In this document: positions 1 through 51,764 of the stretch, piece by piece
Layout: each line of letters begins with the position of its first letter
Position numbering within the stretch: the first letter of the stretch is position 1
Source of the DNA: Nitrospirillum viridazoti CBAmc
GTDB taxonomy: Bacteria; Pseudomonadota; Alphaproteobacteria; Azospirillales; Azospirillaceae
Assembly (NCBI RefSeq): GCF_000730165.1
Contig: NZ_CP022111.1
Location: 1,922,001-1,986,000, forward strand
Length of the DNA: 64,000 nt
Reading direction: 5' to 3'
Notes under the pieces: model-generated
Database searches by the model: none
Told to the model about the DNA's origin: nothing
What the model saw: only the letters and a program-made list of their open reading frames with translations
Program-made: the position numbers and the translations under genes

Positions 1-3000
1 GCCAGCACGGACCGGTAGATCGCCTCCGCCGCTGCCAGGTCGCCGGCGCGATGGGCGGCCATGCCCGCCTCCACCGTGGCTGGGTCATCCATCGGCGGGG
101 CGGCCGCCGCCGCCCTCAGGCGCAGCAGGGCCTGGCGCATGGCCGGGACGACCACCTCCGGTGGACCCCAGCCGGAAAACCATTGGCGCTGTGCCGGGAA
201 CCAGGGCCGCGCGCCGGTGCCCAGGGACGCCCAGGCAGGCATGTGCTGGAACCGCCAGGTGGGCACGCCCAGGGCCGCCGACAGCTCCCCCACCGCCGTG
301 CCGGCCGACACCACCAGGTCCAGCCCCGCCATCAGCGCCGCGACCCCTTCCTGGTCGTCGCGCAGGTCCAGGTCATCCCACAGATGCAGGGTCACGCCGG
401 TGGCGGCGGGGACCTCGGCCATCTCCGCCGCAGCGTCGCCGGCGCGAGCGTCGTACTGCAACACCACGAAACGGACATCCGGCACGGTCAGCAGCGGCAC
501 CATCTGCATCAGGGTCAGGTACAGGTTCTGCCGCCCCAGGCCGCGCAGGCCGCTGCGCCAGCACAAGCCGACCTTGAGACCGGGACCGAGGGCGTCGAGG
601 CGGCCGCGCCAGAACGCCGCCCGCTGCGGATCGGGACGCAGCCAGGGCGGCGGCTCCGCCGGAAAGTCCCCGAGGGAGCGGCGCAGCAGGGCCGGCAGGC
701 CGCCCATGGGCACATGCATGTCGGCGTCGCGCGGTGTGTCGGTGCGGCCGCGCACCACCAGGTCCAGGCCCGCCGGCACCTGAGGCTCCAGCGCCCGGGA
801 CAGCAGGCCGGCCAGCCGGGCGTCCACCTCCACCACCAGGCGGCGGCAGCCCCGCGCGCCCAGCCAGCGCAGCAGGCCGGGCAGGCAGCTGGCGAACAGG
901 ATTTCATCGCCCAGACCCTGTTCGCCCCATACCAGCAAGGCACGGTTCCGCACGTCGCCACCGGTCCAGGCCGGCAGCACCAGGTCCCGCCGGGCCGTAC
1001 TGTCGGGCACGGCGAAGCGGGCGGGATAATCGTGCCAGCCGGCCTCCAGGTCGCCCAGCTCCAGCGCCAGCATGGACAGGTTCACCCGGGCCTTGGCCCA
1101 GCCGGGCCGTAGCGCCAGCGCGCGGCGGTAATGGTCGCGCGCCTCCTCCACCAGGCGCAGGTCGATCAGGGCCCGGCCCAGGTTGAGATGGGTGTCGGCG
1201 TCATCGGGCTGCTGCGTCAGCACGGCGCGCAGATGGGCGGCAGCGGTTTCCGGTTGGCCCAGCAGCAGGCGCAGGTTGGCCAGGCCGCTCAGCGCCGCCG
1301 CCGACGCCGGCTCGATCGCCAATGCCCGGTGAAAGGCCTCAAGCGCCGCGTCCGGCTGGTTCAGCCGGGTCAGGGCGACACCGAGGTTGACCCAGCCGCC
1401 GACCCAGCCGGGATCGGCCTCCGTCGCCCGGCGCTGGGCCTCGGCCGCCGCCTCGTCATTCCCCAGCGCCGTCAACGTCAGGCCACGGTTGGCGTGCAGG
1501 GCGGCGCGATCCGGCGCCAGCTGCACGGCCCGGTCGTGGCAGCGCAGGGCGTCCGGCCCCTGGCCCAAGCCCTGCAGGGCCAGGCCCAGGCCGGACAGCG
1601 CCTCGGCATTGTCGGCGCGCAGGCGCAGCAGTTGGCGGTAACGGTCCGCCGCCGCCGCCCAGCGTTCCTCCCGCCGCAGCAGGCCGGCCAGCGCCGCCAG
1701 GGCGCCGGCATGGCCGGCGTCCGCCGCCTGGCCCAACCGCTCCACAGCCAGGTCCACCCGGCCCGCGTCGCGCGCCGCCAGGCCGTCGGCGTACAGTGTG
1801 TCGGGTGACGGTGCCGCGGGCGACGACACGGGATCCTCGGCGGCAGCGGTACGGGCCAGGCCGGCCAGCCGCCAGGCGAGGTGCGGCAGCACCATGCCGA
1901 TGACCTCGCCCTCGGGCGGGAAGAAGGGTTGTTGCGCGGGGAACCAGGGCCGCGCCCCGCTGCCCAGCCGGGTCCATTCGAAGGTGGCGCCCAGTCGCCA
2001 ACACGGCACCCCCAGGGCGCCGGCCAGTTCCGACACGGCGGTGCCGGCCGTCACCACCAGATCCAGGCCGCTGATCAGGGCCGCGACACCGTCCAAATCA
2101 TCGCGCAAATCCAGGTCGGGCCAGCGGTGGATGCGGATGCCCAGGCGCGCCTCGGCCGCCACCAGCTCGGGCTCCGCCGCCGCGCCGTCATACTGCAGGC
2201 TGACAAAGTGCACATGCGGCAGCCGCAGCAGCGGGTCCCACTCATCCAGCTGCGGGTACAGCAACCGGCCGCGTTCCTCGGTCCGCAGGCCGCTGCGCCA
2301 GCACAAACCCACCTTGAGGCCCCGGCCCAACGCCGCCAGACGGGTGGCCCACAGTGCCGCCAGCGCGGGGTCGGCCGTGAGGTAGGCCGTCGGGGCCCCG
2401 GCGAAGCTGGCCAGGTCCGGCCGCAGCAGGGCCGGCAGGTCCCCTGCCGATAGGGCGGCGTCGGGGGCCGGGGCGCCGCCACCGTCCAGCACGCGGCCCG
2501 CCGGCGCGATGACGGCGCCGGGAAAGGCGCGGGCGAACAGCGTGGCCAGACGCGGGTCGCAATCGATGGCCAGCCGGCCCACCTGTTCCGCCAGATCGCG
2601 GTAGAGGCTGGGGAACAGCAATTCATCCCCCAGGCCCTGTTCGCGCCGCACCAGCAGGGTGCGTCCCGCCAAATCCTGCCCCCGCCACGGCGGCGCCGGC
2701 AGCGGACCCGCCGCACCGCCCAGGTCGCGGCGGGCATAGCCCTGCCAGCCCGCCGCCAGGTCCCCTTGCGCCAGGCGGGCCAAGCCCAGGTTGAATTGGA
2801 TCAGCGGATCAGCGGCGTCCAGCGCCCCGGCCGCGGCCAGGTGGCGCGTTCCGTCCACCAGGCGGCCTTGCGCCACCAGGGCGGTACCCAGGTTGCCGTG
2901 CGCATGCGCCATCCCCGGCGCCAGGGCCACCGCCCGGCGGGCCAGGGATTCCGCCTGCCACGGGGCCCCCAGCGCCGTCATCGTGCCCGCCAGGTTGACC

Positions 3001-5138
3001 AGCGTTTCCGCCCGGTCGGGCGCCAGCCGCAGGGCGTGCAGCAGCACCGCCTCCGCCCCCGCCAAGTCGCCCCGGTCCCGCAGCAGCGCCCCCAGGTTGG
3101 ACGCCGCCGCCGCCAGGGCCGGGTCCTGCGCCAACGCCCGCCGGTAGGCGGCCTCCGCCTCGGCCAGGCGGCCCAGCTGGCGCAGGACGTTGCCCAGGTT
3201 GTTGGCCGGCATGGCCGATTGCTCTGGCGGCAGCAGGGCCAGGGCCTGGACGATGGCCGGCACCGCCCCGGCGGCGTCGCCCGCATGGAAGCGCGCCAGT
3301 CCCAGCAGGTGCAGCGCCTGCCCCCGGGCGGCCGGCGCCAATTCGCCCCATGCGATCAGCGCGTCCAGGGCGGCCACCGCCTCCGTCGCGCGGCCGGCCG
3401 TCAGCAGATCATAGGCCTGGGCCAGGGTCGGCAAGTCGGGGGGGCGGGACATTGCCCGGGGCGCTGGCCCACGGTCATTTGTTTCGATATCGAAATCAGC
3501 AAGCCCCAGCAGGGCTGTACGCACCTGGTCCAGGGCATCGGCCACCGTCTCGGCCGGGAAGATGCGCATGGCCGGGTACCAGGGCCGCACCCGGGTCCCG
3601 AGCATGGACCAGTCGCCCGGCAATTCCATGCGCCAGATGGGTACGCCCAGGGCACCCGCCAGCTCACCCACCGAGGTGGGGGCGGTGATCACCATGTCGA
3701 GAGCGGAGATCAGGGCGGCCACACCCTCGATATCATTGCGCTGGTCCAGGTCGGTGAAGCGATGCGGCAGGCGTAGCCCCTGTTCCGCCGCCGTCCGCCG
3801 CTCCGCCGTGACGTCGCTGTATTGCAGATCCACCCAGGTGATGCCCGGCAGGGACAGCAGCGGCGCCCACCGCGTCAGCCCGAGGTAATTGGGATCGCGG
3901 TGCGGTGCCTTGATGCCGGAGGTCCAGCACATGCCAATTTTCACCCCCGGGCCCAGGTCGGCCAGGCGTTGGCGCCAGTGCGCCACCGCCTGGGGGTCGG
4001 CCGCCAGCCAGCCGCCGCCCCGCCCTGCATAATCGCGCAGGCGGGCACCGAACAGGGCGGGCAAGCCGCCGGCGGGCAGGTGCACGTCGAAATCGTTGCC
4101 GCCCAGCGGCTCGGGCCGCAGTTCCACCCGACCGGCCAGATCCGGCACCTCGCGCCGCAGGTAGCGCGACATGAGGCCGATCAGCCTGGGCTCCGTCAGG
4201 ATGACGACACTGCCGCCGGCAGCCCCCCCTAGCGCCGCGCGCAGGGCCGGGACATAGAGGGGTGAGAACATGAACTCATCGCCCAGCCCCTGTTCCCGCC
4301 ATATCATGAGACGGCGCCCGTCCAAGGGACCACCCGCCCACTGGGGACGGTCGGCATACCGCCACGGCTGGATATTTCCGGTAGCGAAACGACTGCCATA
4401 ATCGGCCCAGCCACCCGACAGCTGGCCCATCGCCAGCCGCACATAGGAGCGGTTGTAGCGCAGCGCCGGATCCTGGGGGTCCAGGGCCAGCGCCCGGGTG
4501 AAGGCGGCCTCCGCCCCCGGCAGGTCACCCAGGACCTGAAGCGCGTTGGCCAGCGACATCAGGCCCCGGGGGTTGGCCGGCTCCAGCGCCAGCAGGCGCC
4601 GGGCCATGATCGCCGCGCCCTCGCCATCATAGAGCTGGCGCATCAGATCGCCCAGGTTCAGCAGGGCGGGGACATGGGTGGGGGCGATATCCAGCAGGCT
4701 GTGATAGGCGGCCATGGCCGCCGGATAGTCCTTCAGCTCTGAATAGGCCAAGCCCAGGGACATCCAGGCGGAAACGCTGCGGGGAAACAGGCGCAGGGTG
4801 TGCCGCAGCAGGGGCACCGCCGCCGCCGCGTCCCCCTGTTGCACCTGCAGCAGGCCCAGGTTTTCCAGCGAGCCTTGGTCATCGGGCCGCACGGCCAGCG
4901 CCCGTTCCAGCAAGGCGCGCCCCTCGGCCGAGCGCCCCTGCTGATGGCAGGCCACGCCGCAGAGGTTCAGCGCATCGGCCTGGGCCGGATCCAGTGCCAG
5001 GATACTGCGGTACAGCGTCTCCGCCCCCGCGAGATCGCCCGCGCGGTGCCGGTCCATGGCCTGGGCCAGCAAGCCGGCGATCTGCCCGCCAGCCTGCCGG
5101 TCGCCCTTCGCCCCCGTGCCGGCGCCGCCATGGACCAT
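1..5138 (-). CDS. Giant modular TPR-glycosyltransferase protein, C-terminus beyond window
   Basis: One frame stays open from ATG 5138 (directly preceded by an in-frame TGA) to the window edge, at least 1712 residues. It repeats one module: a TPR array followed by a GT-B-like domain that resembles the heptosyltransferase (GT9) fold, carrying 'EQGLGDE' after the TPRs and 'GLCWxSG' further on, and ending in a 'GxLGVPxWR' segment and 'RPWYPA' or 'RPWFPA'. Module A covers about residues 1-540, B about 563-1093 and C about 1113-1677. A fourth TPR array begins at the edge. Proteins with one such module are common near alphaproteobacterial flagellin genes, so a role in protein or flagellin glycosylation is likely. 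Donor and acceptor are unknown. Module B opens at an internal ATG (3452) that could be an old gene start, but no stop separates it from module A. It is divergent from pseB. Confidence 0.85.
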   Translation of the reverse strand, partial: MVHGGAGTGAKGDRQAGGQIAGLLAQAMDRHRAGDLAGAETLYRSILALDPAQADALNLCGVACHQQGRSAEGRALLERALAVRPDDQGSLENLGLLQVQQGDAAAAVPLLRHTLRLFPRSVSAWMSLGLAYSELKDYPAAMAAYHSLLDIAPTHVPALLNLGDLMRQLYDGEGAAIMARRLLALEPANPRGLMSLANALQVLGDLPGAEAAFTRALALDPQDPALRYNRSYVRLAMGQLSGGWADYGSRFATGNIQPWRYADRPQWAGGPLDGRRLMIWREQGLGDEFMFSPLYVPALRAALGGAAGGSVVILTEPRLIGLMSRYLRREVPDLAGRVELRPEPLGGNDFDVHLPAGGLPALFGARLRDYAGRGGGWLAADPQAVAHWRQRLADLGPGVKIGMCWTSGIKAPHRDPNYLGLTRWAPLLSLPGITWVDLQYSDVTAERRTAAEQGLRLPHRFTDLDQRNDIEGVAALISALDMVITAPTSVGELAGALGVPIWRMELPGDWSMLGTRVRPWYPAMRIFPAETVADALDQVRTALLGLADFDIETNDRGPAPRAMSRPPDLPTLAQAYDLLTAGRATEAVAALDALIAWGELAPAARGQALHLLGLARFHAGDAAGAVPAIVQALALLPPEQSAMPANNLGNVLRQLGRLAEAEAAYRRALAQDPALAAAASNLGALLRDRGDLAGAEAVLLHALRLAPDRAETLVNLAGTMTALGAPWQAESLARRAVALAPGMAHAHGNLGTALVAQGRLVDGTRHLAAAGALDAADPLIQFNLGLARLAQGDLAAGWQGYARRDLGGAAGPLPAPPWRGQDLAGRTLLVRREQGLGDELLFPSLYRDLAEQVGRLAIDCDPRLATLFARAFPGAVIAPAGRVLDGGGAPAPDAALSAGDLPALLRPDLASFAGAPTAYLTADPALAALWATRLAALGRGLKVGLCWRSGLRTEERGRLLYPQLDEWDPLLRLPHVHFVSLQYDGAAAEPELVAAEARLGIRIHRWPDLDLRDDLDGVAALISGLDLVVTAGTAVSELAGALGVPCWRLGATFEWTRLGSGARPWFPAQQPFFPPEGEVIGMVLPHLAWRLAGLARTAAAEDPVSSPAAPSPDTLYADGLAARDAGRVDLAVERLGQAADAGHAGALAALAGLLRREERWAAAADRYRQLLRLRADNAEALSGLGLALQGLGQGPDALRCHDRAVQLAPDRAALHANRGLTLTALGNDEAAAEAQRRATEADPGWVGGWVNLGVALTRLNQPDAALEAFHRALAIEPASAAALSGLANLRLLLGQPETAAAHLRAVLTQQPDDADTHLNLGRALIDLRLVEEARDHYRRALALRPGWAKARVNLSMLALELGDLEAGWHDYPARFAVPDSTARRDLVLPAWTGGDVRNRALLVWGEQGLGDEILFASCLPGLLRWLGARGCRRLVVEVDARLAGLLSRALEPQVPAGLDLVVRGRTDTPRDADMHVPMGGLPALLRRSLGDFPAEPPPWLRPDPQRAAFWRGRLDALGPGLKVGLCWRSGLRGLGRQNLYLTLMQMVPLLTVPDVRFVVLQYDARAGDAAAEMAEVPAATGVTLHLWDDLDLRDDQEGVAALMAGLDLVVSAGTAVGELSAALGVPTWRFQHMPAWASLGTGARPWFPAQRQWFSGWGPPEVVVPAMRQALLRLRAAAAAPPMDDPATVEAGMAAHRAGDLAAAEAIYRSVL

Positions 5139-5385: not shown

Positions 5386-6408
5386 ATGACGTCGAAGTTC
5401 CTTAAATCGGCCCTGGCCGATTTCAACGGCGCATCCATCCTGATCACCGGCGGGACCGGATCCTTCGGCCGCCAGTTCGTGCGCTATCTGCTGGAACACG
5501 CCAAGCCGCGGCGGATCATCATCTTCTCCCGCGATGAGTTCAAACAGTATGAAATGCAGCAGCAGCTGGGCGTGACCCACGAGGGCGTGCTGCGTTTCTT
5601 CATCGGCGACGTGCGCGACCGGTCCCGCCTGGAAATGGCGATGCGCGAGGTCGAGTACTGCATCCACGCCGCCGCCCTGAAGCATGTGCCGACGGCGGAG
5701 TACAACCCCATCGAATGCATCCGCACCAACGTTTATGGGGCGGAGAATGTGGTGCACGCGGCCCTGGCGGCGGGGGTGCGCAAGGTCATCGCCCTGTCCA
5801 CCGACAAGGCCGCCAGCCCCATCAACCTGTATGGCGCCAGCAAGCTGGCGTCCGACAAGATTTTCGTGGCGTCGAACAACCTGTCGGGATCGGTGGGCAC
5901 CCGCTTCGCGGTCGTGCGCTATGGCAACGTCGTGGGGTCGCGCGGCAGCGTCATCCCGCTGTTCCGCCGCCTGATCGCCGAGGGCGCGGGCGAGCTGCCC
6001 ATCACGGATGAGCGCATGACGCGCTTTTGGATCACCCTGCAGCATGGGGTGGAGTTCGTGGCGTCCTGCTTCGGCATGATGCAGGGCGGCGAAATCTACG
6101 TGCCCAAGATTCCCAGCATGCGGGTGGGCGACCTGGCCCGCTGCATGGCGCCGGACCTGCCGCACAAGGTCATCGGCATCCGTCCCGGCGAAAAGCTGCA
6201 CGAGGTCATGATCACCGAGGACGACAGCCGTCAGACCTTCGAGATGGAGGACCGCTACGTCATCGAGCCGGCCTTCAACTGGTGGACGCGCCAGGCCTAC
6301 GTCAAGCTGGGGGCCAAGCCGGTACCCGATGGTTTCAGCTATCGCAGCGACAGCAACACGGACTGGCTGACCCCCGAACGCTTGGCCGTCCTGCTGCAGA
6401 GGCCGTAA
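5386..6408 (+). CDS. pseB: UDP-N-acetylglucosamine 4,6-dehydratase (inverting)
   Basis: This cytoplasmic enzyme makes UDP-2-acetamido-2,6-dideoxy-beta-L-arabino-hexos-4-ulose from UDP-GlcNAc, the first step of pseudaminic acid synthesis. It is a 340-residue extended SDR. The nucleotide-binding GGTGSFG is at residues 22-28, STDK at 138-141, and the catalytic Tyr149-xxx-Lys153 follows in 'YGASK'. Length and motifs fit PseB/FlmA rather than membrane-bound PglF-type dehydratases. The stop codon overlaps the pseC start (TAATG), so the two are co-transcribed. The divergent neighbour is the giant TPR-glycosyltransferase, which fits a flagellin-glycosylation role. The main alternative is a retaining dehydratase for another 4-amino sugar, but the presence of the other Pse enzymes argues for PseB. 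Confidence 0.9.
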   Translation: MTSKFLKSALADFNGASILITGGTGSFGRQFVRYLLEHAKPRRIIIFSRDEFKQYEMQQQLGVTHEGVLRFFIGDVRDRSRLEMAMREVEYCIHAAALKHVPTAEYNPIECIRTNVYGAENVVHAALAAGVRKVIALSTDKAASPINLYGASKLASDKIFVASNNLSGSVGTRFAVVRYGNVVGSRGSVIPLFRRLIAEGAGELPITDERMTRFWITLQHGVEFVASCFGMMQGGEIYVPKIPSMRVGDLARCMAPDLPHKVIGIRPGEKLHEVMITEDDSRQTFEMEDRYVIEPAFNWWTRQAYVKLGAKPVPDGFSYRSDSNTDWLTPERLAVLLQRP

Positions 6409-7652
6409 TGGCTGCCGACACCCCGTCTTCGCCTCCCTATCTGCCCTATGGCCGGCAGGCCATCGATGAGGACGATATCGCCGCCGTCACCGCCGTGCTG
6501 CGCGGCGACTGGCTGACGCAAGGCCCCACCGTCACCCGGTTCGAGCAGGCCTTCGCCCAAGCCGTGGGCGCCCGCCACGCCGTCGCTTGCGCCAATGGGA
6601 CCGCGGCGTTGCACCTGGCGTGCATGGCGTTGGACCTGCAACCCGGTGACGCCGTGGTGGTGCCTGCCGTCACCTTCCTCGCCACCGCCAACGCCGCCCA
6701 CTATTGCGGGGCGGAGGTGGCCTTCGCCGATGTCGATCCCGAAACCGGCCTGATGCGCCGGGCGGACGCCGAGGCCGCCATCGCCCGGGCGCAGGCCGCC
6801 GGCTGGCGGGTGCGCGCCCTGGCGCCGGTGCACTTCGCCGGCCAGGCGGCGGACTTGGACGCCCTGGGCGACCTGGCCGAGGCGAGCGGCCTAGCCATCA
6901 TCGAGGACGCCTGCCACGCCGTGGGCAGCCGCCGCGCCAGCCGGGCCGGGGCCACCGGAGATGGGGAAACCGTGGCCATCGGCGCCTGCGACCGCTCCGC
7001 CATGGCCTGCTTCTCCTTCCATCCGGTCAAGACCATCGCCGCCGGCGAGGGCGGCATGGTCACCACCAATGACGACGCCCTGGCGCGCAGCCTGCGGCGC
7101 GATGTCAGCCACGGCATGGTGCGTGACCCCGGCAGTTTCCAGGACAGGAAGGCGGCCTTTGGCGCCACCGGTGCCGCCAACCCCTGGTATTACGAAATGC
7201 CGGCGCCCGGGTACAATTACCGCCTGACCGACATCCACGCCGCCTTGGGCCTGAGCCAGTTGGGCAAGCTGCACCGCTTCGCCCGCCGGCGGGCGGAGAT
7301 GGTGGCGCGCTACGATGAACGCCTCGCGCCTCTGGCCCACCTCATTCGGCACGCGGGGCGCAGCGGTGGAGAGCCCGCCTGGCACCTTTACGTCGTCCTG
7401 ATCGACTTCATGGCCCTGGGCCGGGACCGCGCCGCCGTCATGGCGGATCTCAAGGCCCAAGGCGTGGGCAGCCAGGTGCACTACATCCCGGTGCACCACC
7501 AGCCCTATTACCGGGAGCGCTACGGCAGCCTGGACCTGCCTGGCGCCGACGGCTGGTACCAGGCGTGCCTGTCCCTGCCGCTGTTCCCCGCCATGACCGA
7601 CGGCGATGTCGACCGCGTGGTGGCGGCCCTGGAACACCTGGTCAAGGCGTGA
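6408..7652 (+). CDS. pseC: UDP-4-amino-4,6-dideoxy-N-acetyl-beta-L-altrosamine aminotransferase
   Basis: This PLP-dependent aminotransferase of the DegT/DnrJ/EryC1 family gives the 4-amino sugar from the PseB product, with glutamate as the usual donor. It has 414 residues. The N-terminal 'YLPYGRQAIDEDDI' segment and the 'GDWLTQGP' motif are typical of PseC. The PLP lysine is Lys208 in 'FHPVKTIAAGEGG', with an upstream 'EDACHAVGS' that contacts the cofactor. The start ATG at 6408 shares one base with the pseB stop. A longer upstream extension in the same frame lies inside pseB and is not used. The next gene is convergent, so the transcription unit on this side is just pseB-pseC. Confidence 0.9.
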   Translation: MAADTPSSPPYLPYGRQAIDEDDIAAVTAVLRGDWLTQGPTVTRFEQAFAQAVGARHAVACANGTAALHLACMALDLQPGDAVVVPAVTFLATANAAHYCGAEVAFADVDPETGLMRRADAEAAIARAQAAGWRVRALAPVHFAGQAADLDALGDLAEASGLAIIEDACHAVGSRRASRAGATGDGETVAIGACDRSAMACFSFHPVKTIAAGEGGMVTTNDDALARSLRRDVSHGMVRDPGSFQDRKAAFGATGAANPWYYEMPAPGYNYRLTDIHAALGLSQLGKLHRFARRRAEMVARYDERLAPLAHLIRHAGRSGGEPAWHLYVVLIDFMALGRDRAAVMADLKAQGVGSQVHYIPVHHQPYYRERYGSLDLPGADGWYQACLSLPLFPAMTDGDVDRVVAALEHLVKA

Positions 7653-7680: not shown

Positions 7681-8922
7681 TCAACCCGCCTTCTGGGCCA
7701 GCTTGGCCACGCGGTCCTGGTAGGCGGCCGGGTAAAGGGCCAACTGACGGTGCATCAGCGCCCCACCTTCCGCGTCGGCCTCGCGATAGGCGGCCACCGC
7801 CTCGGCCCCCTGCCCGGCACCGTCCAGCACCATGGCCAGCAGCAGCTTGGCCAGCGGCTGGTTGGGCGCCTGGGCGCTGGCCTGCTTCAGGCTGGCGACG
7901 GCCTCGGCCAAGGCACCCGCCTCAAACTCCACCAGGCCGCGGCACTGGTTGGCAAAATAGTTGCGCGGCTCGCGGGCGCAGCCCGCCTGGGCGTGGGCCG
8001 CCGCCTGGGCCGCGTCACCCCGGCGCAGCGCCACGAGGGCGCGGTGGCTTTCCGGCAGGGCCCAGCCGGTGTCAACCTGGGCGCAGCGGCTGAAATGCTC
8101 CTCCGCCGCCGCCAGGTCGCCGGCCGCCAGGTCACGCATGCCCCATTGCAGCAGCAGGTTCTTGTCATCCGCGGCGGCCGCGCCCACCAGGGCGACGTAA
8201 CCTTCGATCTCGGGCACCGCCTCCTGTGGCCGCACCAGGCGCACCAGGCATCGGATGATCTGAAAGCGCAAATCCGGACGGGTCGGCACCAGCCGGCTGG
8301 CGACCCGCGCGGCCGCCAGCGCCAACTCCGTCCGCCGCACCTGGTCGTCCCGCCACTGGGCGAAAAGGGTGTTGGAGATATCGGCCAGGGCGCTCGCCAA
8401 GTCGTCGGCTGAACTGGCCGGGATGTCGCTCGCCACCGTCAGCGCGTGCGCCCAGGCGGCCAGCGCATCGGGGACGCGTCCTTCGACGTGGGCTGCCAGG
8501 CCGGCCAGCGCCGACACGCGGATGTCGGTGGCGGGCGCCAGCTCCACGAAGCGGCGGGCCCATGCCACGCCTTCCGCCTTGCCGTCCTTCAGCAGGCGAG
8601 CGGACAGGTTGGCACAACCGTCCAGCCACAAGGCCGGCGCGCGTGCCTGCAGGTCCGCCTGCCGCTGCCGCGCGGCCTCGGCTTGGCCCAGCCGCTCTTC
8701 CGTCCAGGCCAGCAGGGGATACAGGATGGCCAGGTCCGGCTGGATCTCCACGGCCCGCTGCAGGGCGCCGTGGGCCGCCTGGGCGTCGCCGCCCATCAGC
8801 AGGGCGATGCCCATCTCGAAATGATAATTGGCGAAGGTGGTCTGGCGTATGCGATCCCGCCAACGGCCGATCGCCGCCTCATCCAGCGCGGTTGCCGCCT
8901 GGTCCCCTGCCGTCACGCTCAT
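7681..8922 (-). CDS. TPR-repeat protein, function unknown
   Basis: The 413-residue protein is alanine-rich and almost entirely helical pairs of TPR/Sel1 character, for example a pair near residues 35-80 ('HFEMGIALLMGGDAQAAHGALQRA' region) and several more toward the C-terminus. No catalytic domain, signal peptide or membrane segment is visible. ATG 8922 has AGGAG directly against it. GTG 8916, six bases further in, has better spacing and is a good alternative start. It faces pseC convergently with a 28-base gap. It lies downstream of a receiver and a hybrid kinase on the same strand, so it could be read with them. It may be a scaffold for signalling or glycosylation, but nothing in the sequence decides this. 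Confidence 0.7.
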   Translation of the reverse strand: MSVTAGDQAATALDEAAIGRWRDRIRQTTFANYHFEMGIALLMGGDAQAAHGALQRAVEIQPDLAILYPLLAWTEERLGQAEAARQRQADLQARAPALWLDGCANLSARLLKDGKAEGVAWARRFVELAPATDIRVSALAGLAAHVEGRVPDALAAWAHALTVASDIPASSADDLASALADISNTLFAQWRDDQVRRTELALAAARVASRLVPTRPDLRFQIIRCLVRLVRPQEAVPEIEGYVALVGAAAADDKNLLLQWGMRDLAAGDLAAAEEHFSRCAQVDTGWALPESHRALVALRRGDAAQAAAHAQAGCAREPRNYFANQCRGLVEFEAGALAEAVASLKQASAQAPNQPLAKLLLAMVLDGAGQGAEAVAAYREADAEGGALMHRQLALYPAAYQDRVAKLAQKAG

Positions 8923-8989
8923 CTCCTGCCTTTCATGATCGCCGACGCGTCGGCGACACTGTACCAATCCGGGACGGCCAAGCCACGGT

Positions 8990-9402: not shown

Positions 9403-12400
9403 CTAGTTGCCCGCCGTCTCCACCGCCTTACCGATAAACCGTTCGCCCAGCGCCGTCCAGGCGCCGGGGCCGACACGGCCGACGCGGACAGCCAGGGCCC
9501 GCACAGTGCCCATATCCCCGTCGGCGCAGGCCTCGTGCATCTGGCGGCCCAGCGCCTGCAGGCCTACCAGGCCGACATTGCCGGCGGTGGAGATCAGGTC
9601 GTGCGCCTCCGCCCGCAAGGGCGTCAGGTCCGATGCCTCCGCCAGGGCCTGGATGCGCCGCACCCGGGCCAGACCGTGCTCGATGAAATTCTCCACCAGC
9701 ACCTGAAAGTCGGCCGGCGGCACGATGGCCTGCAACCCGGCCAGCACGGCGGGGTCCAGCCGCGCCAGGGTAGCGTCGTCCTCGGCCATCGGGTCCGCCG
9801 GAGGCGTGGCTTCCGCATCAGCCTGGGGGCTGGCGGCATGGTCGGCGCCACTGGCGACCCAGCGCGCCACCGTGTCCAGGAACTGCTGCTGGTCGAAAGG
9901 CTTGGAGACGTAGTCGTCCATGCCGGCGGCCAGGTATTCCTCGCGCATGCCCACCATGGCGTTGGCGGTCATGGCCAGGATGGGCAGATGGCGCAGGCCC
10001 AGGTCACGGCGCAGCACCTGGGTGGCGGTCACGCCGTCCATCACCGGCATCTGCACGTCCATCAGCACCAGGTCATAGGCCGTGGTCTGGCAGGCGGCCA
10101 CCGCCGCCTGGCCATCCTCCGCCATGTCGACGGTATAGCCGTCGCGTTCCAGCATGATGCGCGCGACGGACCGGTTGACCATGTTGTCATCCACCAGCAG
10201 CAGGCGGCGGCCCAGCCCGCGGGCGCCCTGGTCGCGCGCCAGCGGCCCGTCCACCTCGGCCTCCACCACGTCGCCGCCGCCGAACAGGCGCAGGAGCAGG
10301 GCGCGCAGCGCCGGGGCCCGCGCCGGCTGGGTCAGCACGCCGTCCACCGCCGTGTCGGCTTCGGCCACCTGTGGCCGGCCGGTCGCCACCACCATCTTGG
10401 CCGCCGCCGCCCGGGGCAGGGTCCGCAGCCGGGCAGCCAGGGTGGGACCGTCCGCGCCAACGGCGGCGTCGGAGGGGGGCTCGGCGATGACCACGATGTC
10501 GAAGGCCCAGGCCTCCTCCGCCGCCACCTCGGCCACGGCGGCGTCCGCGTCCGCCACGGACGTCACCATGAGATCCAGGCGCTCCAGCGCCTTCACCAGA
10601 CCGCTGGCCCCGACCACCAGGGCCCGCAGGCCGCTGAGCGCCGCCACGGCCGCGGCGCGGCGGGCCACCTGCACGCTGGACGGCTTCAGCGGGATGGTGA
10701 AGGCGAAGGTGGAGCCGGCGCCGGGCGCGCTGTCCAGGGTGATGCCGCCGCCCATGAGGCGCACCAGCTCGCGCGAGATAACCAGGCCCAGGCCGGTGCC
10801 GCCATAGCGCCGGTTGATGGACGTGTCGGCCTGGGTGAATTTCTCGAACAGGCGGGCCTGCTGCTCCGCGCCCATGCCCACGCCCGTATCGACGACGGTG
10901 AAGCGCAGGCGTCGGCGGTCGTCCGCCCGATCTCCGCCGTTTTCAGCGGGTGCCGCCGTGATGGCCAGGCTGACGCGACCCTCGGCCGTGAACTTCACGG
11001 CATTGCCCATCAGGTTCAGCAGCACTTGGCGCAGGCGGGTGGGGTCGCCGCGATAGGCGCCGGCAACTTCAGGCGCCACGGAAACGTCCAGATCCAGCCC
11101 CTTTTCGCGCGCCTGGGGCGTCAGCAGGGCCATCACGCCCTCAACCACCTCATCCAGGACGAAGTCCACCATCTCCAGCTCGACCTTGCCGGCCTCCAGC
11201 TTGGAGATGTCCAGGATGTTGTTGATGATGTTCAGCAGGGCCTGGGCGCTGTCGTGGATGGCCTCGGCATAGGCGCGCTGCTCGGTCGCCAGCGCGGTGC
11301 CAAGCAGGATCTGGGTCATGCCCATGATGCCGTTCATGGGCGTGCGGATCTCATGGCTCATATTGGCCAGGAAATCGGACTTGGCGCGGTTGGCCGCCTC
11401 CGCCGCCTGCTTGGCGCCGGCCAGGTCATCGGCCAGGGCGGCCAGGTCGCCCTCGCGCTTTTTCTCCCGCGTGATATCGGACAGGGTCACCACCAGGCCG
11501 CGCCCCCAGGGCACGGCGGTGATGCGGAACCAGCGCCCGTCCTCGTCCCGGTGATATTCGAAGGTGGCGGCGCGGCCCGTGTCCACCACCTGGACATAGC
11601 GGTCGAACAGGCCACCGGCCGCAAGATCGGGGAACAGCTCCTTCAGGCCCCGGCCCACCAAGTCGTGGGCGGAGTAGCCGGCCATCTTCTCGGCGGTGAC
11701 GTTGACCAGCTCGAAGCGGAAGTCGCTGACGTCGAAGTTTTCGTCCCGGATGGTGTCATAGGCAAAGACCCCGTCCAGCGAGGCGTTCAGCACGTTGTCC
11801 AGCAGGGTGCGCTGCGCCTGCAGGGTGGCGCGCGCCGCCTCCAGTTCCGTCACCTGGGCGTTCAGGTGCAGGGTCGCCGCCACCTGGTCCGACACGTCGC
11901 GCAGCAAGGCGACGTAATGGGTGACGCGGGCGCCCACACGGGCCGGAAAGATGGCCAGATCCACCCAGAAGGGACGACGGTCGCGGGTATAGTTCAGCAG
12001 GCGCTGGCGCACCGGTTCCCCCGCCACCAGCGCCTGACGGATACGCTCCAGCGCCGCCCTGTCGGTCAGCGGCCCCTGGAGGAAGCGGGGGGAACGGCCC
12101 ACCGCCTCGTCCCAGGAGAATCCGGTGACGGTGGTGAAGGCCTCGTTCACGAAGATGATGCGGGGGCCCGGCTCGTCCAGGGCGTCGGCCTCGGTGATCA
12201 TGATGCCATCGGTGGCGTGCACCGCCACCGATTGCAGCAGGCGCAGGCGCTCTTCCGCCGCCACTTGGTGGGTACGGTCGCGCCCCGACCCGCGAAAGCC
12301 CTGGAACACGCCGGCTTCATCGAAGAAGGGCTTGCCACTGACCACCACGTGACGCAGCGCCCCGTCCTCGCCGTACAGGCTGTAGGTCAGGTTGCGGAAC

Positions 12401-13683: not shown

Positions 13684-13818
13684 TCCTCATCCCCCAACAG
13701 GCCGGGGGCATGGAGGCCCCGGCTGTTCCCGCCAGGGGACCTTTGTCGCATCCGGATGCCGCATCGTCCAGGGCGCGGACGGAGAGGCTACATAGATAGG
13801 ATTTTCGCGGAACGATGC

Positions 13819-15984: not shown

Positions 15985-16100
15985 GGGACGCGACAGCCTC
16001 GGCGGATCGGGATCCATCCCCCTGGCGACAGCGACGGCCGGGGTCAGGGGGACGGCGGAACGGAGGCAGGGAACTTCTGCCCCCGTTCCAGGATTGATCC

Positions 16101-18230: not shown

Positions 18231-18366
18231 GAACCCCATCCGTAGGGGCGGCCGACCGCTGCCACGGATCGCCCCAGCCCCTGTCTGTTGCCTTTAGTAG
18301 TGGGTCAGGACGAGGCCGGATGCAATACGCTGCTTAGGACAAATGGGGGTGATCCGGAAGGAGATC

Positions 18367-33032: not shown

Positions 33033-34094
33033 TTGAGCACCATCCTGATCCGCGCCGACGCCACCGCGTCCATGGGCACCGGCCACGTCATGCGCTGCCT
33101 GTCGGTGGCGGAGGCCTTGCGGGAACGGGGGATATCACCCCTGTTCGGTGCCGTGGACCTGCCGCCCGCCCTGGCGCGTCGGCTGGACGCCGCCGGCTTC
33201 GGCGTCAGCCTGCTGGCGGGCCCGGCGGCAAGTGGGGCGGACCTGGCCAGCCTGGCCGGGCAGATACGCCGGCACGACGCCCGCGCCGTGATCCTGGACG
33301 GTTATCACTTCAACGATGCCTATCGTGCCGGACTGGCGGCGCTGGGCAAACCGGTCATGGCCTTCGACGACGGGCCGGGCACGCGGCCCCTGCACGCCCG
33401 GCTGATTGTGAACGCAGGCGCGGCGGTGGATGAGGCCACCTATCGCGCCGCCAATCCGGATGCCATGCTGGCGCTGGGGCCCGCCTATGCCCCCCTGCGG
33501 GTGGAGTTCCGCCGGGCGCGCGGCCAGGCCTTGCCCCCCCTTGACCGCCGTCGCCGCCTGCTGCTGACCTTCGGCGGCACCGACCCGGCGGGCCTGACGC
33601 TGCCCTGCCTGAAGCGCCTGGCCCCAGCCCTGCCGGCCGGCGCCGGCCTGGACGTGGTGGTGGGCGGCAGCAACCCCAACACCGACTGCATCCGCACCGC
33701 CGGAGACCGCTACCCCAACACGGTCGTCCATGTGGAAACGCCGCGCATGGCCGACCTGATGCGCGAAGCAGGCCTGGCCCTGTCCGCCGCCGGCGGCACC
33801 TTGGGGGAGTTGGCCTGCCTGGCGGTGCCCACGCTGCTGGTGGTGGTGGCGGATAACCAGGCCAGCAGTGCCGGCGCGGTGGCGGCATCAGGCAAGGCCC
33901 GGGTCATCGACGCGCGCGGCATGGACAAGGCCGAGGCGGCGGAGCGCATCACGGCCGACGCCCTGGCGCTATGGGCCGATGCCGACGCACGCGCGGCCCT
34001 GAGCCACCGCATCGGCGAGGGCGATGGCGGCCAGATGGTGGACGGGTTGGGCGCGGTGCGCATCGCCGACGCGTTGCTGGCCCTGCCGGCCTGA
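33033..34094 (+). CDS. pseG: UDP-2,4-diacetamido-2,4,6-trideoxy-beta-L-altropyranose hydrolase
   Basis: A 353-residue GT-B-fold hydrolase that removes UDP from the 2,4-diacylated sugar, step four of the Pse pathway. The diagnostic N-terminus is 'RADATASMGTGHVMRCLSVA' with the catalytic His in 'GTGHVMRC'. Later blocks include 'LTFGGTDPAGLTL' and 'SAAGGTLGELACLAVPTLL'. The start is a TTG with AAAGG upstream; no ATG or GTG in frame precedes the conserved motif, so the rare start is well supported. It is divergent from the KAS III-like gene and followed 19 bases later by a helicase gene, an odd neighbour for a sugar enzyme. Confidence 0.92.
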   Translation: MSTILIRADATASMGTGHVMRCLSVAEALRERGISPLFGAVDLPPALARRLDAAGFGVSLLAGPAASGADLASLAGQIRRHDARAVILDGYHFNDAYRAGLAALGKPVMAFDDGPGTRPLHARLIVNAGAAVDEATYRAANPDAMLALGPAYAPLRVEFRRARGQALPPLDRRRRLLLTFGGTDPAGLTLPCLKRLAPALPAGAGLDVVVGGSNPNTDCIRTAGDRYPNTVVHVETPRMADLMREAGLALSAAGGTLGELACLAVPTLLVVVADNQASSAGAVAASGKARVIDARGMDKAEAAERITADALALWADADARAALSHRIGEGDGGQMVDGLGAVRIADALLALPA

Positions 34095-43450: not shown

Positions 43451-44215
43451 TCAAGCCAGGGGCTTCTGCACCACGTCGCGGTTCAGCAGCACCCAATCGG
43501 GGTGCCGGCGCAGCACGTCCAGACAATCCGTCCAGGTGAAGTGCGGCTTGGCCGGCAACAGGGTTTCAAGCAAACGGCGGACCAGTTGGAAGTCCTCCAC
43601 CGTGTCCACGCACCAGCGCTGCGGCCCCATCTCCACCGGCGCCGGGCCCGCTGGTGGCAGGGAGCCCAGGCGGAAACGGTCCGGCCGGCGATAGATGAAG
43701 GGCGTCACATGCTCACGTTCGAACGGTTCCCTTGCCTCTTGCCACGCCGCCTGCAAGGCCGTCATTGACATGGCTTCGGCGTCCAGGCCGCGCGGATAAT
43801 AGCCTATGTCGACGGAGGCATGGTCCAGCGGCGGGTCCGCCGCCAGGAAAAGGGTCAGCAGCCGGTCGATCAGACCAGGGTCGATCAGGGGGCAGTCGCC
43901 CGTCACCCGCACCGCCACATCGGCATGATGGGCAAGGGCGGCCCGGCAAAAACGATCCAGCACGTCATGCTCGCTGCCCCGGAAGCAGGCAACGCCCAGG
44001 ACGCGGCACAGCTCGGCGATGGCGTCGTCGGTCGGGCCATCGCTGGTGGCCACCACCACCTCGTCCACCAGGGCGGCACGGCGCAGGCGCTCCACCTGGT
44101 GGGCCAGCAGCGACTTGCCCGCCACGGTCAGCAGCACCTTGCCCGGCAGGCGGGTGGACCCCATGCGCGCCTGGGTGATGCAGACGACCCGGGGCTTTTG
44201 GGCCGGGACCGTCAC
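43451..44215 (-). CDS. pseF: CMP-nonulosonate cytidylyltransferase, SpsF/PseF-like
   Basis: A 254-residue nucleotidyltransferase (CTP_transf_3). The glycine/arginine loop is 'QARMGSTRLPGKVL' (residues 15-28), with 'VATSDGPTDDAI' and 'RVTGDCPLIDP' (metal-binding Asp) downstream. It belongs to the SpsF-type branch found in many pseudaminic acid loci and would activate pseudaminic acid with CTP to CMP-Pse. The ATGA overlap with the pseI gene supports this. The alternative, a KdsB-like enzyme for Kdo, is less likely because kdsB has 'RLPGKPL' in a different context and this gene is fused into the pseI operon. Confidence 0.82.
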   Translation of the reverse strand: MTVPAQKPRVVCITQARMGSTRLPGKVLLTVAGKSLLAHQVERLRRAALVDEVVVATSDGPTDDAIAELCRVLGVACFRGSEHDVLDRFCRAALAHHADVAVRVTGDCPLIDPGLIDRLLTLFLAADPPLDHASVDIGYYPRGLDAEAMSMTALQAAWQEAREPFEREHVTPFIYRRPDRFRLGSLPPAGPAPVEMGPQRWCVDTVEDFQLVRRLLETLLPAKPHFTWTDCLDVLRRHPDWVLLNRDVVQKPLA

Positions 44216-45264
44216 GGCTGGACCATGCCCCAGTCCAGAGGCTGGCCGGCATCGATATCACGGGCAGCGCGGGCGCCCAGCACCTGGTCCAAATGCTTGG
44301 GCGACAGCCCCAGGCCGGGGCGGACGGAGCGGACGTTGGCCGGCGTAAACACCTCCCCCGCCTTCACGGGAGCGGAGACGTAGAGCGAGCGGCGGAAGGA
44401 CCGGCCGCCGGCCTCGGACGGCTTGACGGCATAGCCGACCTGGCCCAAGGCGGCATGGGCCACGCGGCAAGCGTCGGCCATGGCCTTGAACTCCCCCGGT
44501 TCCAGGGAGAAGGAGGCGTCGACGCCGCCCTCGGCCCGCGACAGGGTCAGATGCTTCTCGATAACGATGGCGCCCAGCGCCACCGCCGCCACCGGCACGG
44601 CGATGCCATGGGTGTGGTCGGACAGGCCGGTGGGCACGCCGAAGGCCTGGGCCAGGTGAGGGATGGTGCGCAGGTCGCATTCCTCCGGCGGGGTGGGATA
44701 GCCGCTGGTGCAATGGAGCAGCACGGGGTCGGGCGTGCCCGCCGGCGCCGCCTCGCGCGCGGCCGTCACCGCGTCGTCGATCTCACCCAAGGTGGCCATG
44801 CCGGTGGAGATGATCAGCGGCTTGCCCTTGGCGGCTGCGTAACGGATCAGCGGCAGGTCCACGATTTCATAGGAGGCGATCTTGAACGCCGGCGCGCCCA
44901 GCCGGTCCAGCAGATCCACCGCCGTGGGATCGAAGGGTGAGCTGAAAATGGTGATGCCGATCATGGCGGCATGGGCGAACAGCTGGGGATGCCAGGCCCA
45001 GGGGGTGTGCGCCTCCTCATACAGCTCATGCAGGCTGCGGCCATCCCAGGGACCGCCATGGATCTGGAACTCCGGGCGGTTGGACTTCAGGGTGATGGTG
45101 TCGGCCGTGTAGGTCTGCAGCTTGACCGCGTCCGCACCCGCCGCCTTGGCGGCATCGATCAGGCGGATGGCGCGCTCGATCTCCCCCTTATGGTTGCCGG
45201 ACATCTCGGCGATGAGATACGGCACCTGGCCGGTGCGGAAGGTGAGACGGGCGGGATCGGACAT
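44212..45264 (-). CDS. pseI: Pseudaminic acid synthase
   Basis: A 350-residue NeuB-family synthase that condenses phosphoenolpyruvate with 2,4-diacetamido-2,4,6-trideoxy-L-altrose. The TIM barrel starts with 'YLIAEMSGNHKGEIERAIRLIDAAKAAGADAVKLQTY'-type segments, then 'FSSPFD', 'KIASYEI' and 'STGMATLGEI'. The C-terminal SAF domain is 'FRRSLYVSAPVKAGEVFT'. The reading 'NHKGE' and 'SFSLEPGEF' is closer to PseI than to sialic (NeuB) or legionaminic (LegI) enzymes, but the final choice needs a tree. It is the first gene of a five-gene operon with pseF, two ACPs and a hydrolase. Confidence 0.88.
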   Translation of the reverse strand: MSDPARLTFRTGQVPYLIAEMSGNHKGEIERAIRLIDAAKAAGADAVKLQTYTADTITLKSNRPEFQIHGGPWDGRSLHELYEEAHTPWAWHPQLFAHAAMIGITIFSSPFDPTAVDLLDRLGAPAFKIASYEIVDLPLIRYAAAKGKPLIISTGMATLGEIDDAVTAAREAAPAGTPDPVLLHCTSGYPTPPEECDLRTIPHLAQAFGVPTGLSDHTHGIAVPVAAVALGAIVIEKHLTLSRAEGGVDASFSLEPGEFKAMADACRVAHAALGQVGYAVKPSEAGGRSFRRSLYVSAPVKAGEVFTPANVRSVRPGLGLSPKHLDQVLGARAARDIDAGQPLDWGMVQP

Positions 45265-48198: not shown

Positions 48199-50280
48199 CT
48201 ACGCCACATCGAACCCCAGGGGCGGCAGGCGGTCCCGCGCCCGCGCCATCATGCGGGCGTATGCCCTCTCCAGCCGGCGACAGAAAGTGGTGGTGTCGAA
48301 AGGACCACCGGGCAGCGCACGCGCTTCAGCCAAACGGGCACGTACGCCGCCCAAGCGCGCCGAATCCCTGGCCAAATCCAGGGCTGCGGCCTCGTACGCT
48401 TCCAGGCTGTACGTCACCAGGTCCGGTAGTCCCAAGGCCGTCAGCAGACTGGCGGCCACCCGGGAAATGAAGGGGCCACCCGCCCGGGTCAACACCGGCA
48501 GGCCGGCATAAAGCGCGTCGGCCGCCGTGGTGTGGGCGTTCACCGGATGGGTATCCAGGAACAGGTCGGCACAGGCGTGGCGGGCCAAGTGGTCGGCCAT
48601 GCGCGCCTTGGGCAGGGCCGGCGCCACCACCAGGCGGCCGGGATCGACACTCTTGGTTGACAGCATTGCCTGCAATGCCGGCAGAGCCGGCCCTGGATCC
48701 AGCAGCCACAACACCGATCCTGGAACCTTGGTCAGCAGCCGGGCCCAGCAAGCCACGACCTCGGGCGTCAGCTTGTAGGCGGCGTTGAAGCAGGCGAAGA
48801 CAACGCCGCCGGCCGGCAGGCCCCAGTCCGCGCGTGTGGTCGGCGGGCCGATGGGCCGCGCCCCATCGTTGGCCTGGTAGCAACCGGGCAGGCGCACGAC
48901 CGCCTCATCCCAGAAGCCCGCCCGCTCCGGCGGCAGTACCACGGCGTCGGCCAGCACATAATCGATGCCGGCACCCCGGCCCAGGGTACCGGGATAACCC
49001 AGGTACTGAACCTGAACCGGGGCGGGGCGCAGTTGCGCGATGCCGGGCCGCCCGCCCTCGGTATAGCCCTTGAGATCGACCAGGATGTCCACACCGGCGG
49101 CACGGATGGCCTGCGCCGCCGCCCGGTCATCCAGGCCGCGCAGATCAACAAAGCGGTCGGCCCCGGCCCGCAGCCGCGCCCGCATGGGGCTGCCGTCGTC
49201 GGGCCCATAGGAAAAGGCCGTGACGGCCACCGCCGCACGGTCGTGTTGTTCCAATACGCCGGCTATCAGGTAGGCGGTGGGGTGCTGGTGCCAATCGGCG
49301 GAGAGGTAGCCGACGCGCAACGGTTCTCTGGCAGGTCCCAGGCTGGCCGGCGGCAAGGGCGCACCCGCCGAGCGCGCCACGGTCGCCGCGTGTAGGCTGG
49401 CCGCCCGCTGGTGCCAGGCCTCGTCCACATCCAGGCACAGCACGGCGAAGGGCGGGGCGCTGTCGTCGCCCGCCTGCAACGCGGCCAGCAGATCCGGCGT
49501 CCGCGCCGCGACGTCGTCCCAGCGGCAGAGGCGGGCGTCGATATGCACCAGATGGGCCAGGGCGCCGGCCCGCCGGCTGGTGCCCCGGTCCAGCGCCGCC
49601 TGTAGGCAAGGGCGCGCCTCCACATCGCGGTGCCGACGCTGCAGCAAGATGCCCAGGTTCAGCCAGGCATCGGCCGTGTCCGGCCGCTGAGCCGTCAGCG
49701 CCCGGTATTCCGTCTCCGCCGCGTCCAGCTGCCCCTGGTCCTCCAGGACGGAGGCCAGGTTGAAGCGGGCGATGGCCTGCGTAGGATCGGCCTCAACGGC
49801 GGCGCGCAGAACTCCCTCGGCCTCCGCCAGGCGGCCCATGCGATGCAGGGCCACGCCCAGATTGGCACGGGCGGCGCCGTGCGCCGGATCCAGCGCCGCC
49901 GCCCGCCCCAGCGGCGTCAGCGCTTCGCCCGCACGGTTCAGGTTCAGCAGCAGGGTGCCCAGGGCGAAGGCGGCGCCGGCATGGGAGTCGTCGCGTGCCA
50001 GGGCGGCGCGGAACGCGGCCTCCGCAGCCGGCATGCGGCCCAGCGCCGCGCGCAAGCGGCCCAGGTTGGTCAGGATTTCCGCATCCGGCCGCAGGGCGGC
50101 GGCGCGGGCCACCAAGCCCTCGCCCGTCGCCGGATCCCCCTGCTGGCCGCGCAGCACGCCCAGAAGGTGCAGGGCATCCGGCTGATGCGGCTCGGCCGCC
50201 AGCACCTGGGTGTAAAGGTCGGCCGCCTCGTCCAAGACGCCCGCCTGATGGCGGGCCACGGCCTGATGCAACGGCGTCAT
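48199..50280 (-). CDS. TPR protein O-linked N-acetylglucosaminyltransferase-like (GT41)
   Basis: A 693-residue SPINDLY/OGT-like protein. About nine TPRs fill residues 1-270. The GT41 catalytic half starts at 'LRVGYLSADWHQHPTAYLIAGVLEQHDR' (about 325) and includes 'DILVDLKGYTEGGRPGIAQLRPAPVQVQYLGYPGT' and 'FLDTHPVNAHTTAADALYAGLPVLT'. The 'HP' motif His-x-x-x-Tyr region is intact. Family members O-glycosylate proteins, including flagellins in some bacteria. ATG 50280 overlaps the upstream TPR-glycosyltransferase stop (ATGA). A start further upstream would overlap that gene. Confidence 0.9.
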   Translation of the reverse strand: MTPLHQAVARHQAGVLDEAADLYTQVLAAEPHQPDALHLLGVLRGQQGDPATGEGLVARAAALRPDAEILTNLGRLRAALGRMPAAEAAFRAALARDDSHAGAAFALGTLLLNLNRAGEALTPLGRAAALDPAHGAARANLGVALHRMGRLAEAEGVLRAAVEADPTQAIARFNLASVLEDQGQLDAAETEYRALTAQRPDTADAWLNLGILLQRRHRDVEARPCLQAALDRGTSRRAGALAHLVHIDARLCRWDDVAARTPDLLAALQAGDDSAPPFAVLCLDVDEAWHQRAASLHAATVARSAGAPLPPASLGPAREPLRVGYLSADWHQHPTAYLIAGVLEQHDRAAVAVTAFSYGPDDGSPMRARLRAGADRFVDLRGLDDRAAAQAIRAAGVDILVDLKGYTEGGRPGIAQLRPAPVQVQYLGYPGTLGRGAGIDYVLADAVVLPPERAGFWDEAVVRLPGCYQANDGARPIGPPTTRADWGLPAGGVVFACFNAAYKLTPEVVACWARLLTKVPGSVLWLLDPGPALPALQAMLSTKSVDPGRLVVAPALPKARMADHLARHACADLFLDTHPVNAHTTAADALYAGLPVLTRAGGPFISRVAASLLTALGLPDLVTYSLEAYEAAALDLARDSARLGGVRARLAEARALPGGPFDTTTFCRRLERAYARMMARARDRLPPLGFDVA

Positions 50281-51764
50281 GGTGCCGGAGCGGCCAGCCA
50301 GGCGCCCAGCCGGGCGGTCAGGCGGGACAGCGGCGCCCGCCAATCGCCCATCTCCTCCTGCTGCAGCTGTACCAGGCTGGGATACCAGGGGCTGTCCACC
50401 CGCCCCTTCTGCCAGCGCCAGCAACCGTCATAGCGGTTCAGCAGCCAGACGGGGCGGCCCAGCGCGCCGGCCAAGTGGGTGACCGAGGTATCGACGGTGA
50501 TCACCAGGTCCAGGTTCGCCGCCAGGGCGGCGGTGTCGGCGTAATCCGCCAGCTCCGCCGTCCAGTCGATCAACGGCGGGGCGGCCGGGGCGGCAGGGCC
50601 GCCCTTCTGCAGGCTGACGAAGGCCACCCGGTCATGGAACCGTGACAAGGGGGCCAGCAGTGCCGGATCCAGGCTGCGCCTGGCGTCGACCGGATTGCCC
50701 GGCGCCCCCGCCCAGCACAGGCCCACGGTCCGCCGGCCGGCCGCGACGTCGTTCAGGCGCGCACGGAACGTCGACGCCTGGGCCGGATCCGGCGCGAGGT
50801 AGGGCCCGGCCGTCGCCAGCTCCGCGGCGCTGGTCAGACCCAGGCGGCCTGGCAGGCTGAGCAACGGGCAGTAAACGTCATAGGCGGGCAGCGTGGGATC
50901 CGCCGTTGACACGACCTGGGCCACGCCGGGCGCCGTGGCCAGCAGGCGGACCAGTTCCGGCTGGCAGGCCAGCACGACGCGGGCACCCCGGGCGGCCAGG
51001 GGCGCGATGAAGCGGGCGAATTGCAGGCTATCGCCCCGGCCCTGTTCGCTGTGCACCAGGATGGTGCGTCCGGCGGGGTCGGCGCCATCCCATTCCAGCC
51101 CGTGCGGCCGGGCCAGAACATGGCCGGCGCGGCCCCGCCGCGCCTCGAACTGGGGCCAGCCGGCGGCGTAGTCGCCGGCCATCAGCAGGGCCAGCGCCAA
51201 ATCCCAGCGCGCCTCCCCACCCCGTTCGCCCAGGGGTTGGCCGGGGGCGGGGGCTGTCACCTCCACCGCGCGGCGCAGCAGGCCCAGGGCGCGGGGCAGC
51301 TGGCCCCGGTCCGTCAGCGCCACACCCAGGTTGATCAGGGTGACGGGATGGTCGGGCGCCAGGGGCAGCGCCCGTTCCAGGCAGGCGATGGCGGCGGCCA
51401 GCCGGCCGGTGGCGTGCAACACCCCGCCGAGGTTGGCCATGGCATCGACATGACCAGGATCAATGGCAAGCGCCTGGCGATAGGCTTCTTCTGCCAGATC
51501 GAATCGGCCCTGCGCCTTCAGCGCGGTGCCCAGGTTGCTGCGATAGGTGGGGTTGTTCGGGACGATGGCCGCCGCCAGCATCATGCTTTCGGTGGCGCCG
51601 TCCAGGTCACCCAGCTGGATGCGGGCCAGGCCCAGCAGATGCAGAGCCCCGTGGTTGCGCGGCTCGGCGTCGATGATGCGGCCATAGAGCGTCACCGCCG
51701 CGTCCAGCCGGCCGGCGACGTGATGCTCATAGGCAGCGGAGAGGGCTTCGGTCACACTGGCCAT
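50277..51764 (-). CDS. TPR protein with GT9-like glycosyltransferase domain
   Basis: A 495-residue protein with the same architecture as one module of the giant gene at 1-5138: TPRs (about 1-200), then the GT-B-like region with 'ILVHSEQGRGDSLQFARFIAPL', 'VGLCWAGAPGNPVDARRS' and 'DLVITVDTSVTHLAGALGRPVWLL'. The 'TVDTSVTHLAGALG' motif is the usual heptosyltransferase-like C-terminal signature. It is the first gene of a pair with the GT41 and divergent from the Rieske oxygenase across 101 bases. It probably glycosylates protein; its donor is unknown. Confidence 0.88.
   Translation of the reverse strand: MASVTEALSAAYEHHVAGRLDAAVTLYGRIIDAEPRNHGALHLLGLARIQLGDLDGATESMMLAAAIVPNNPTYRSNLGTALKAQGRFDLAEEAYRQALAIDPGHVDAMANLGGVLHATGRLAAAIACLERALPLAPDHPVTLINLGVALTDRGQLPRALGLLRRAVEVTAPAPGQPLGERGGEARWDLALALLMAGDYAAGWPQFEARRGRAGHVLARPHGLEWDGADPAGRTILVHSEQGRGDSLQFARFIAPLAARGARVVLACQPELVRLLATAPGVAQVVSTADPTLPAYDVYCPLLSLPGRLGLTSAAELATAGPYLAPDPAQASTFRARLNDVAAGRRTVGLCWAGAPGNPVDARRSLDPALLAPLSRFHDRVAFVSLQKGGPAAPAAPPLIDWTAELADYADTAALAANLDLVITVDTSVTHLAGALGRPVWLLNRYDGCWRWQKGRVDSPWYPSLVQLQQEEMGDWRAPLSRLTARLGAWLAAPAP

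Follow-up and report, generated by a model that had tools for sequence, protein, structure and literature searches.

A five-module TPR-glycosyltransferase of Nitrospirillum, a putative multi-site flagellin O-glycosyltransferase encoded beside pseudaminic acid genes

The window analysed here, a stretch of 64,000 nucleotides of Nitrospirillum viridazoti CBAmc (C2:1922001-1986000, from a 7.4 Mb genome in four contigs), opens within a giant gene. An open reading frame on the minus strand (3..5138) runs over 1712 codons and leaves the window at its left edge; the stop-free frame described in an earlier note on this DNA is thus borne out, and in the whole genome it is longer still, at 2842 codons. 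Extension to the left, as that note had proposed, locates the stop 3391 bases beyond the window (remainder of the gene at C2:1918610-1922002) and brings the module count to five, giving a protein of 2842 aa and 301 kDa with no internal stops, for which hydropathy suggests no transmembrane segments. Codons 1-1712 lie within the window.

The five modules are consecutive, each of ca. 545-580 aa and each consisting of a TPR array (with Pfam TPR matches in every module) followed by a GT-B-like domain, in agreement with the at least three TPR-glycosyltransferase modules and fourth array at the edge that had been recognised from the window sequence. All are encoded on the minus strand. Module 1 (3414..5138) comprises TPR residues ~20-241 and a GT domain at residues 242-560 (window ~3459-4415); module 2 (1785..3413) carries its GT domain at residues 795-1110 (window ~1809-2756) and module 3 (69..1784) at residues 1366-1685 (window ~84-1043), in both cases behind a TPR array. 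The TPR start of module 4 occupies 1..68, and the rest of this module (GT domain at residues 1949-2260) together with all of module 5 (GT domain at residues 2530-2842) lies to the left of the window. Pairwise identity among the five GT domains is 42-49%, and a comparison of their motifs finds one set common to all five (EQGLGDE, W.S, L[QH]Y, D.D.R.D and RPW), with drift in module 4 (W.SM for W.SG) and module 5 (A-W for C-W and LHY for LQY). Conservation between the modules is greatest in the putative donor half of the GT domain (51%), lower in the acceptor half (45%) and lowest in the TPR arrays (34%).

A model of module 3, derived from 78 sequences, has a pLDDT of 96.1 and a pTM of 0.91, and shows 16 TPR helices leading into an alternating alpha/beta, GT-B-like domain. 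The closest solved structures found by Foldseek are Arabidopsis SPINDLY and, as a close second, OGT (E-values down to 3.8e-16), while a second structural alignment gives a Z-score of 21.7 for OGT that derives largely from the TPR part. In a model of modules 1 and 2 together both modules are confidently predicted, with a disordered, low-confidence linker (residues ~549-562); the pTM of 0.52 leaves the relative placement of the two modules undefined. The O-fucosyltransferase SPINDLY and OGT (GT41) likewise have a TPR superhelix followed by a GT-B domain, but comprise one module each, in comparison with the five of the giant protein. Despite the similar fold, GT41 (PF13844) is matched by neither the five GT domains nor the whole protein at the sequence level, and a sequence profile search of the PDB with the GT domains gave no match. 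The whole protein scores 28.3 bits against GT9 (PF01075; cut-off 22), with a best stretch of 32 residues, and the single GT domains are essentially unmatched. A Maf flagellin glycosyltransferase domain is absent from the Pfam and NCBIfam matches.

A close known counterpart in domain plan is FlmG of Caulobacter crescentus (596 aa), a cytoplasmic protein with an N-terminal TPR and a C-terminal GT-B-type domain that is tied to pseudaminic acid synthesis, and in which the TPR domain binds flagellin and the GT domain alone fails (PMC7591256). Judged by the Pfam TPR matches and the module 3 model, the modules of the giant protein have this FlmG-class arrangement, the likeness meant here being one of domain plan. 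FlmG has one module rather than five in a 2842-aa chain, and transfer to flagellin is proven for FlmG but would be ascribed to the giant protein by analogy. Flagellin-adjacent TPR-GTs of Phenylobacterium (L119 and L111) match the GT profile, yet form their own clade.

That separate genes have been joined by a stop missed in assembly or annotation is an exceedingly improbable explanation of the giant frame, and at the DNA level it is already refuted. No missed stop or frameshift is present at the module junctions in the source genome. The five-module frame is intact in six of seven Nitrospirillum genomes (the source and five more independent assemblies), at 2828-2878 aa. The one observation on the side of such an artefact comes from the seventh genome (G005; L025 ~8330), where the frame is divided into 2+3 modules by a single frameshift in the module 3 TPR, which may be a sequencing error or a real loss; homology is continuous across the break, and an interpretation as two genes was rejected on these grounds. 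Purifying selection is evident throughout the frame: dN/dS is 0.06-0.42 across its ten TPR and GT segments, with similar, low values for GT1-GT5 (0.13-0.33). A chance open frame is likewise ruled out by codon-position composition, which is strong in the giant frame, by conservation in a single frame and by dN/dS; the frame of the gene contains its terminal stop only, and the other five contain 10-49 stops each. Tandem Repeats Finder detects no DNA-level repeats in the gene, indicating that the modules are old and that the gene is neither a repeat array of recent origin nor the product of assembly collapse. An ATG preceded by an SD-like sequence occurs at the junction of modules 3 and 4 in four of six genomes, and internal translation starts within the frame may exist. 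PADLOC gave no sign of a defence system, returning one weak, TPR-driven match.

The modules at each position form their own clade across species with 100% support, which dates the five-module gene to at least the age of the genus; the best named match of one GT domain is in N. amazonense BR 12005 (95%). Related genes with fewer modules are found in Azospirillum, often as convergent two-module and three-module genes, and in Niveispirillum, as one gene of three or four modules whose pseB/pseC neighbourhood is in common with Nitrospirillum. In the tree, module 2 of Nitrospirillum groups with the first Niveispirillum module (95/97) and module 4, more weakly, with the third (80/86), which suggests a module order common to the two genera. 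Modules of the giant gene branch among single-module genes from their own genome as well, with some forks weakly supported, and a simple internal tandem duplication within Nitrospirillum is rejected by this intermixing with Niveispirillum modules and single-module paralogs. GT relatives occur in 68 of 299 genomes of a phylum sample, mostly as single-module frames and in some cases with two modules; the expectation that such proteins normally have one module holds across the phylum, but versions with two to four are common within the Azospirillaceae. A proteobacterial MAG contains a four-module TPR-GT (L103:1777-9243) whose modules form a clade apart, the second and third being almost identical, which likely reflects an independent origin and a recent module duplication, a reading to be taken with the caution due to a MAG. 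Beyond the Proteobacteria, in Gemmatimonadetes MAGs (L093, L099, L106 and L115), related TPR-GTs adjoin flagellin or pseB/pseC/NeuB genes.

The divergent neighbours of the giant gene, which hold this position at every Nitrospirillum and Niveispirillum locus examined, are pseB, encoding a UDP-GlcNAc 4,6-dehydratase (5386..6408, plus strand; TIGR03589 above cut-off), and the pseC aminotransferase gene (6477..7652, plus strand, start approximate; TIGR03588 above cut-off), both also supported by synteny. Further into the window are a pseG-like UDP-sugar hydrolase gene (matched part 33039..33872, plus strand, C2:1955039-1955872; TIGR03590 above cut-off), a CMP-sugar cytidylyltransferase gene (43451..44215, minus strand; PF02348) that is a candidate pseF, scoring below cut-off on the PseF model, and pseI for pseudaminic acid synthase (44212..45264, minus strand; TIGR03586 above cut-off), the sole NeuB-family gene of the genome. 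With PseB, PseC, PseG and PseI all above curated cut-offs, the host is predicted to make a nonulosonic acid donor. A TPR-only protein of 428 aa (7681-8967, minus strand) adjoins pseC and is kept in three Nitrospirillum loci. The region also contains a tandem pair of prolyl oligopeptidase (S9) genes (13819-18239, minus strand) and a 1794-aa open frame (9535-14919, plus strand) that lies antisense to a gene for a hybrid histidine kinase, the latter probably a by-product of high GC content.

Besides the giant gene, the genome encodes an unusually large set of about 21 TPR-GTs, distributed over C1-C4. The gene at 50277..51764 (minus strand), previously described as a one-module version, is indeed a single-module TPR-GT but belongs to a different subfamily, its GT domain being ~31% identical to those of the giant protein and falling in a separate clade; closer one-module relatives of the giant modules are found elsewhere (C2:1127k, 934k and 1477k). 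Adjoining it near pseI is a gene for a TPR protein whose GT domain genuinely belongs to GT41 (48199-50424, minus strand; PF13844), unlike the GT domains of the giant gene, and two different TPR-GT types thus stand side by side. Two divergent TPR-GTs (702 and 707 aa) adjoin the gene for a 661-aa flagellin at C2:20118, and a one-module TPR-GT lies ~7 kb from a short flagellin.

The link to flagellin is an indirect one of gene neighbourhood. Most multi-module genes of Azospirillum and Niveispirillum are found ~2-25 kb from a long flagellin gene (~630-670 aa) and a NeuB gene; in one draft genome (G023) the three are on different contigs. A 19 kb island of A. brasilense Sp7 (L121), with genes identified by homology, contains a flagellin gene, a three-module and a two-module gene, a NeuB gene and a cytidylyltransferase gene. 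This flagellin is of the polar type and may be either of the two polar flagellins annotated in A. brasilense. The glycosylated polar flagellin of this species has an apparent mass of ~100 kDa, and removal of the glycan lowers it to 65-70 kDa (PMC8100600). The glycan reported for it is a neutral, O-antigen-like tetrasaccharide repeat of Rha, Fuc, Gal and GlcNAc (PMC3958885) rather than pseudaminic acid, so that the donor may differ and pseudaminic acid should not simply be assumed. In Nitrospirillum the order giant gene, pseBC, pseI and long flagellin is kept but stretched over ~100 kb (in G002, giant gene at 604-613k, pseI at 653k and flagellin at 715k), and the long flagellin has its own adjoining divergent single-module TPR-GTs. 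In the source genome the long flagellin is reached from the giant gene across the contig ends, assuming that C2 is circular. The two long flagellins of this genome are ~56% identical to that of Azospirillum and contain 27% Ser+Thr.

Taken together, these observations lead us to propose, with moderate confidence, that the giant protein acts in the cytoplasm as an FlmG-like O-glycosyltransferase of five modules, modifying flagellin at several sites, probably with pseudaminic acid. Five complete enzyme units would be held in one soluble chain by short flexible linkers. Each TPR superhelix would probably hold the acceptor at a different part, and each GT-B domain would transfer a sugar to Ser/Thr hydroxyls, most likely pseudaminic acid with CMP-pseudaminate as the donor. 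The acceptor is probably the long (620-660 aa), Ser/Thr-rich flagellin before export, and joining of the units would allow several sites on one flagellin to be modified per encounter with the units fixed at 1:1 stoichiometry. We infer flagellin as the most likely acceptor and pseudaminic acid as the most likely donor, with each module most likely active and the action most likely multi-site. Since the donor half is best conserved between modules and the TPR arrays least, a single donor with several acceptor sites fits better than five donors. The suggestion in the earlier note that a tandem transferase could add several sugars to one protein accords, at the level of sequence, with the divergent TPR arms, the conserved donor half and the Ser/Thr-rich probable target; its other suggestion, processing of long substrates, gains no specific support, although the flagellins linked to the giant gene are long.

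A rival reading keeps the enzyme type but takes a surface or secreted protein other than flagellin as the acceptor, in which case the pseudaminic acid genes would supply flagella as well as other surface glycans; we regard this as unlikely. The large number of other TPR-GT genes, some directly beside flagellin genes, counts against assigning the flagellin role to the giant protein, as do the ~100 kb that separate it from the long flagellin gene in Nitrospirillum and the absence of flagellar genes among the immediate neighbours tested. Against this stands the synteny with Niveispirillum and Azospirillum, in which multi-module genes do lie near long flagellin genes.

Alternatively, a single oligosaccharide might be assembled stepwise on flagellin by the five modules, each drawing on a different donor sugar, which we regard as improbable. 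The modules are old and distinct in both identity and clade, the glycan reported for the A. brasilense polar flagellin is repetitive, and multi-domain glycosyltransferases with several functions are known: chlorovirus A111/114R, for example, carries three GT domains in one polypeptide and takes part in protein glycosylation, as proposed here (PMC7826918), although the comparison is an analogy only, its domains having different proposed sugars and forming an N-glycan. However, a protein-binding TPR array in every module is better suited to acceptors that are proteins than to sugars, the putative donor half is the part most alike between modules, the motif residues are common to all five, and the number of modules varies from two to five across the family without a known matching change in glycan. 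Comparably improbable is a protein in which only one or two modules are catalytic and the others serve as TPR scaffolds with inactive GT folds, for binding or oligomerisation. Inactive copies are often retained in polymodular enzymes, and the motif drift in modules 4 and 5 could be read in this way, but EQGLGDE and the other invariant positions persist in all five modules and the five GT domains show similarly low dN/dS.

No description of multi-module TPR-GTs was found in the open-licence papers searched; the novelty would lie in the joining of several modules in one chain rather than in the chemistry. Within the proposed role as a multi-site flagellin glycosyltransferase, a tentative extension is that in each module the TPR arm and its GT domain together serve one particular flagellin segment or site. 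The glycosylation pattern would then be encoded in how many modules there are and in what order, with the number (1-5) tuned between lineages. How cytoplasmic O-glycosyltransferases choose their sites is an open question (PMC7591256), and the natural series of one- to five-module enzymes near long, Ser/Thr-rich flagellins would make site choice testable by deletion or swapping of single modules. The giant enzyme could, in addition, serve as a ready-made tool for multi-site protein glycosylation.
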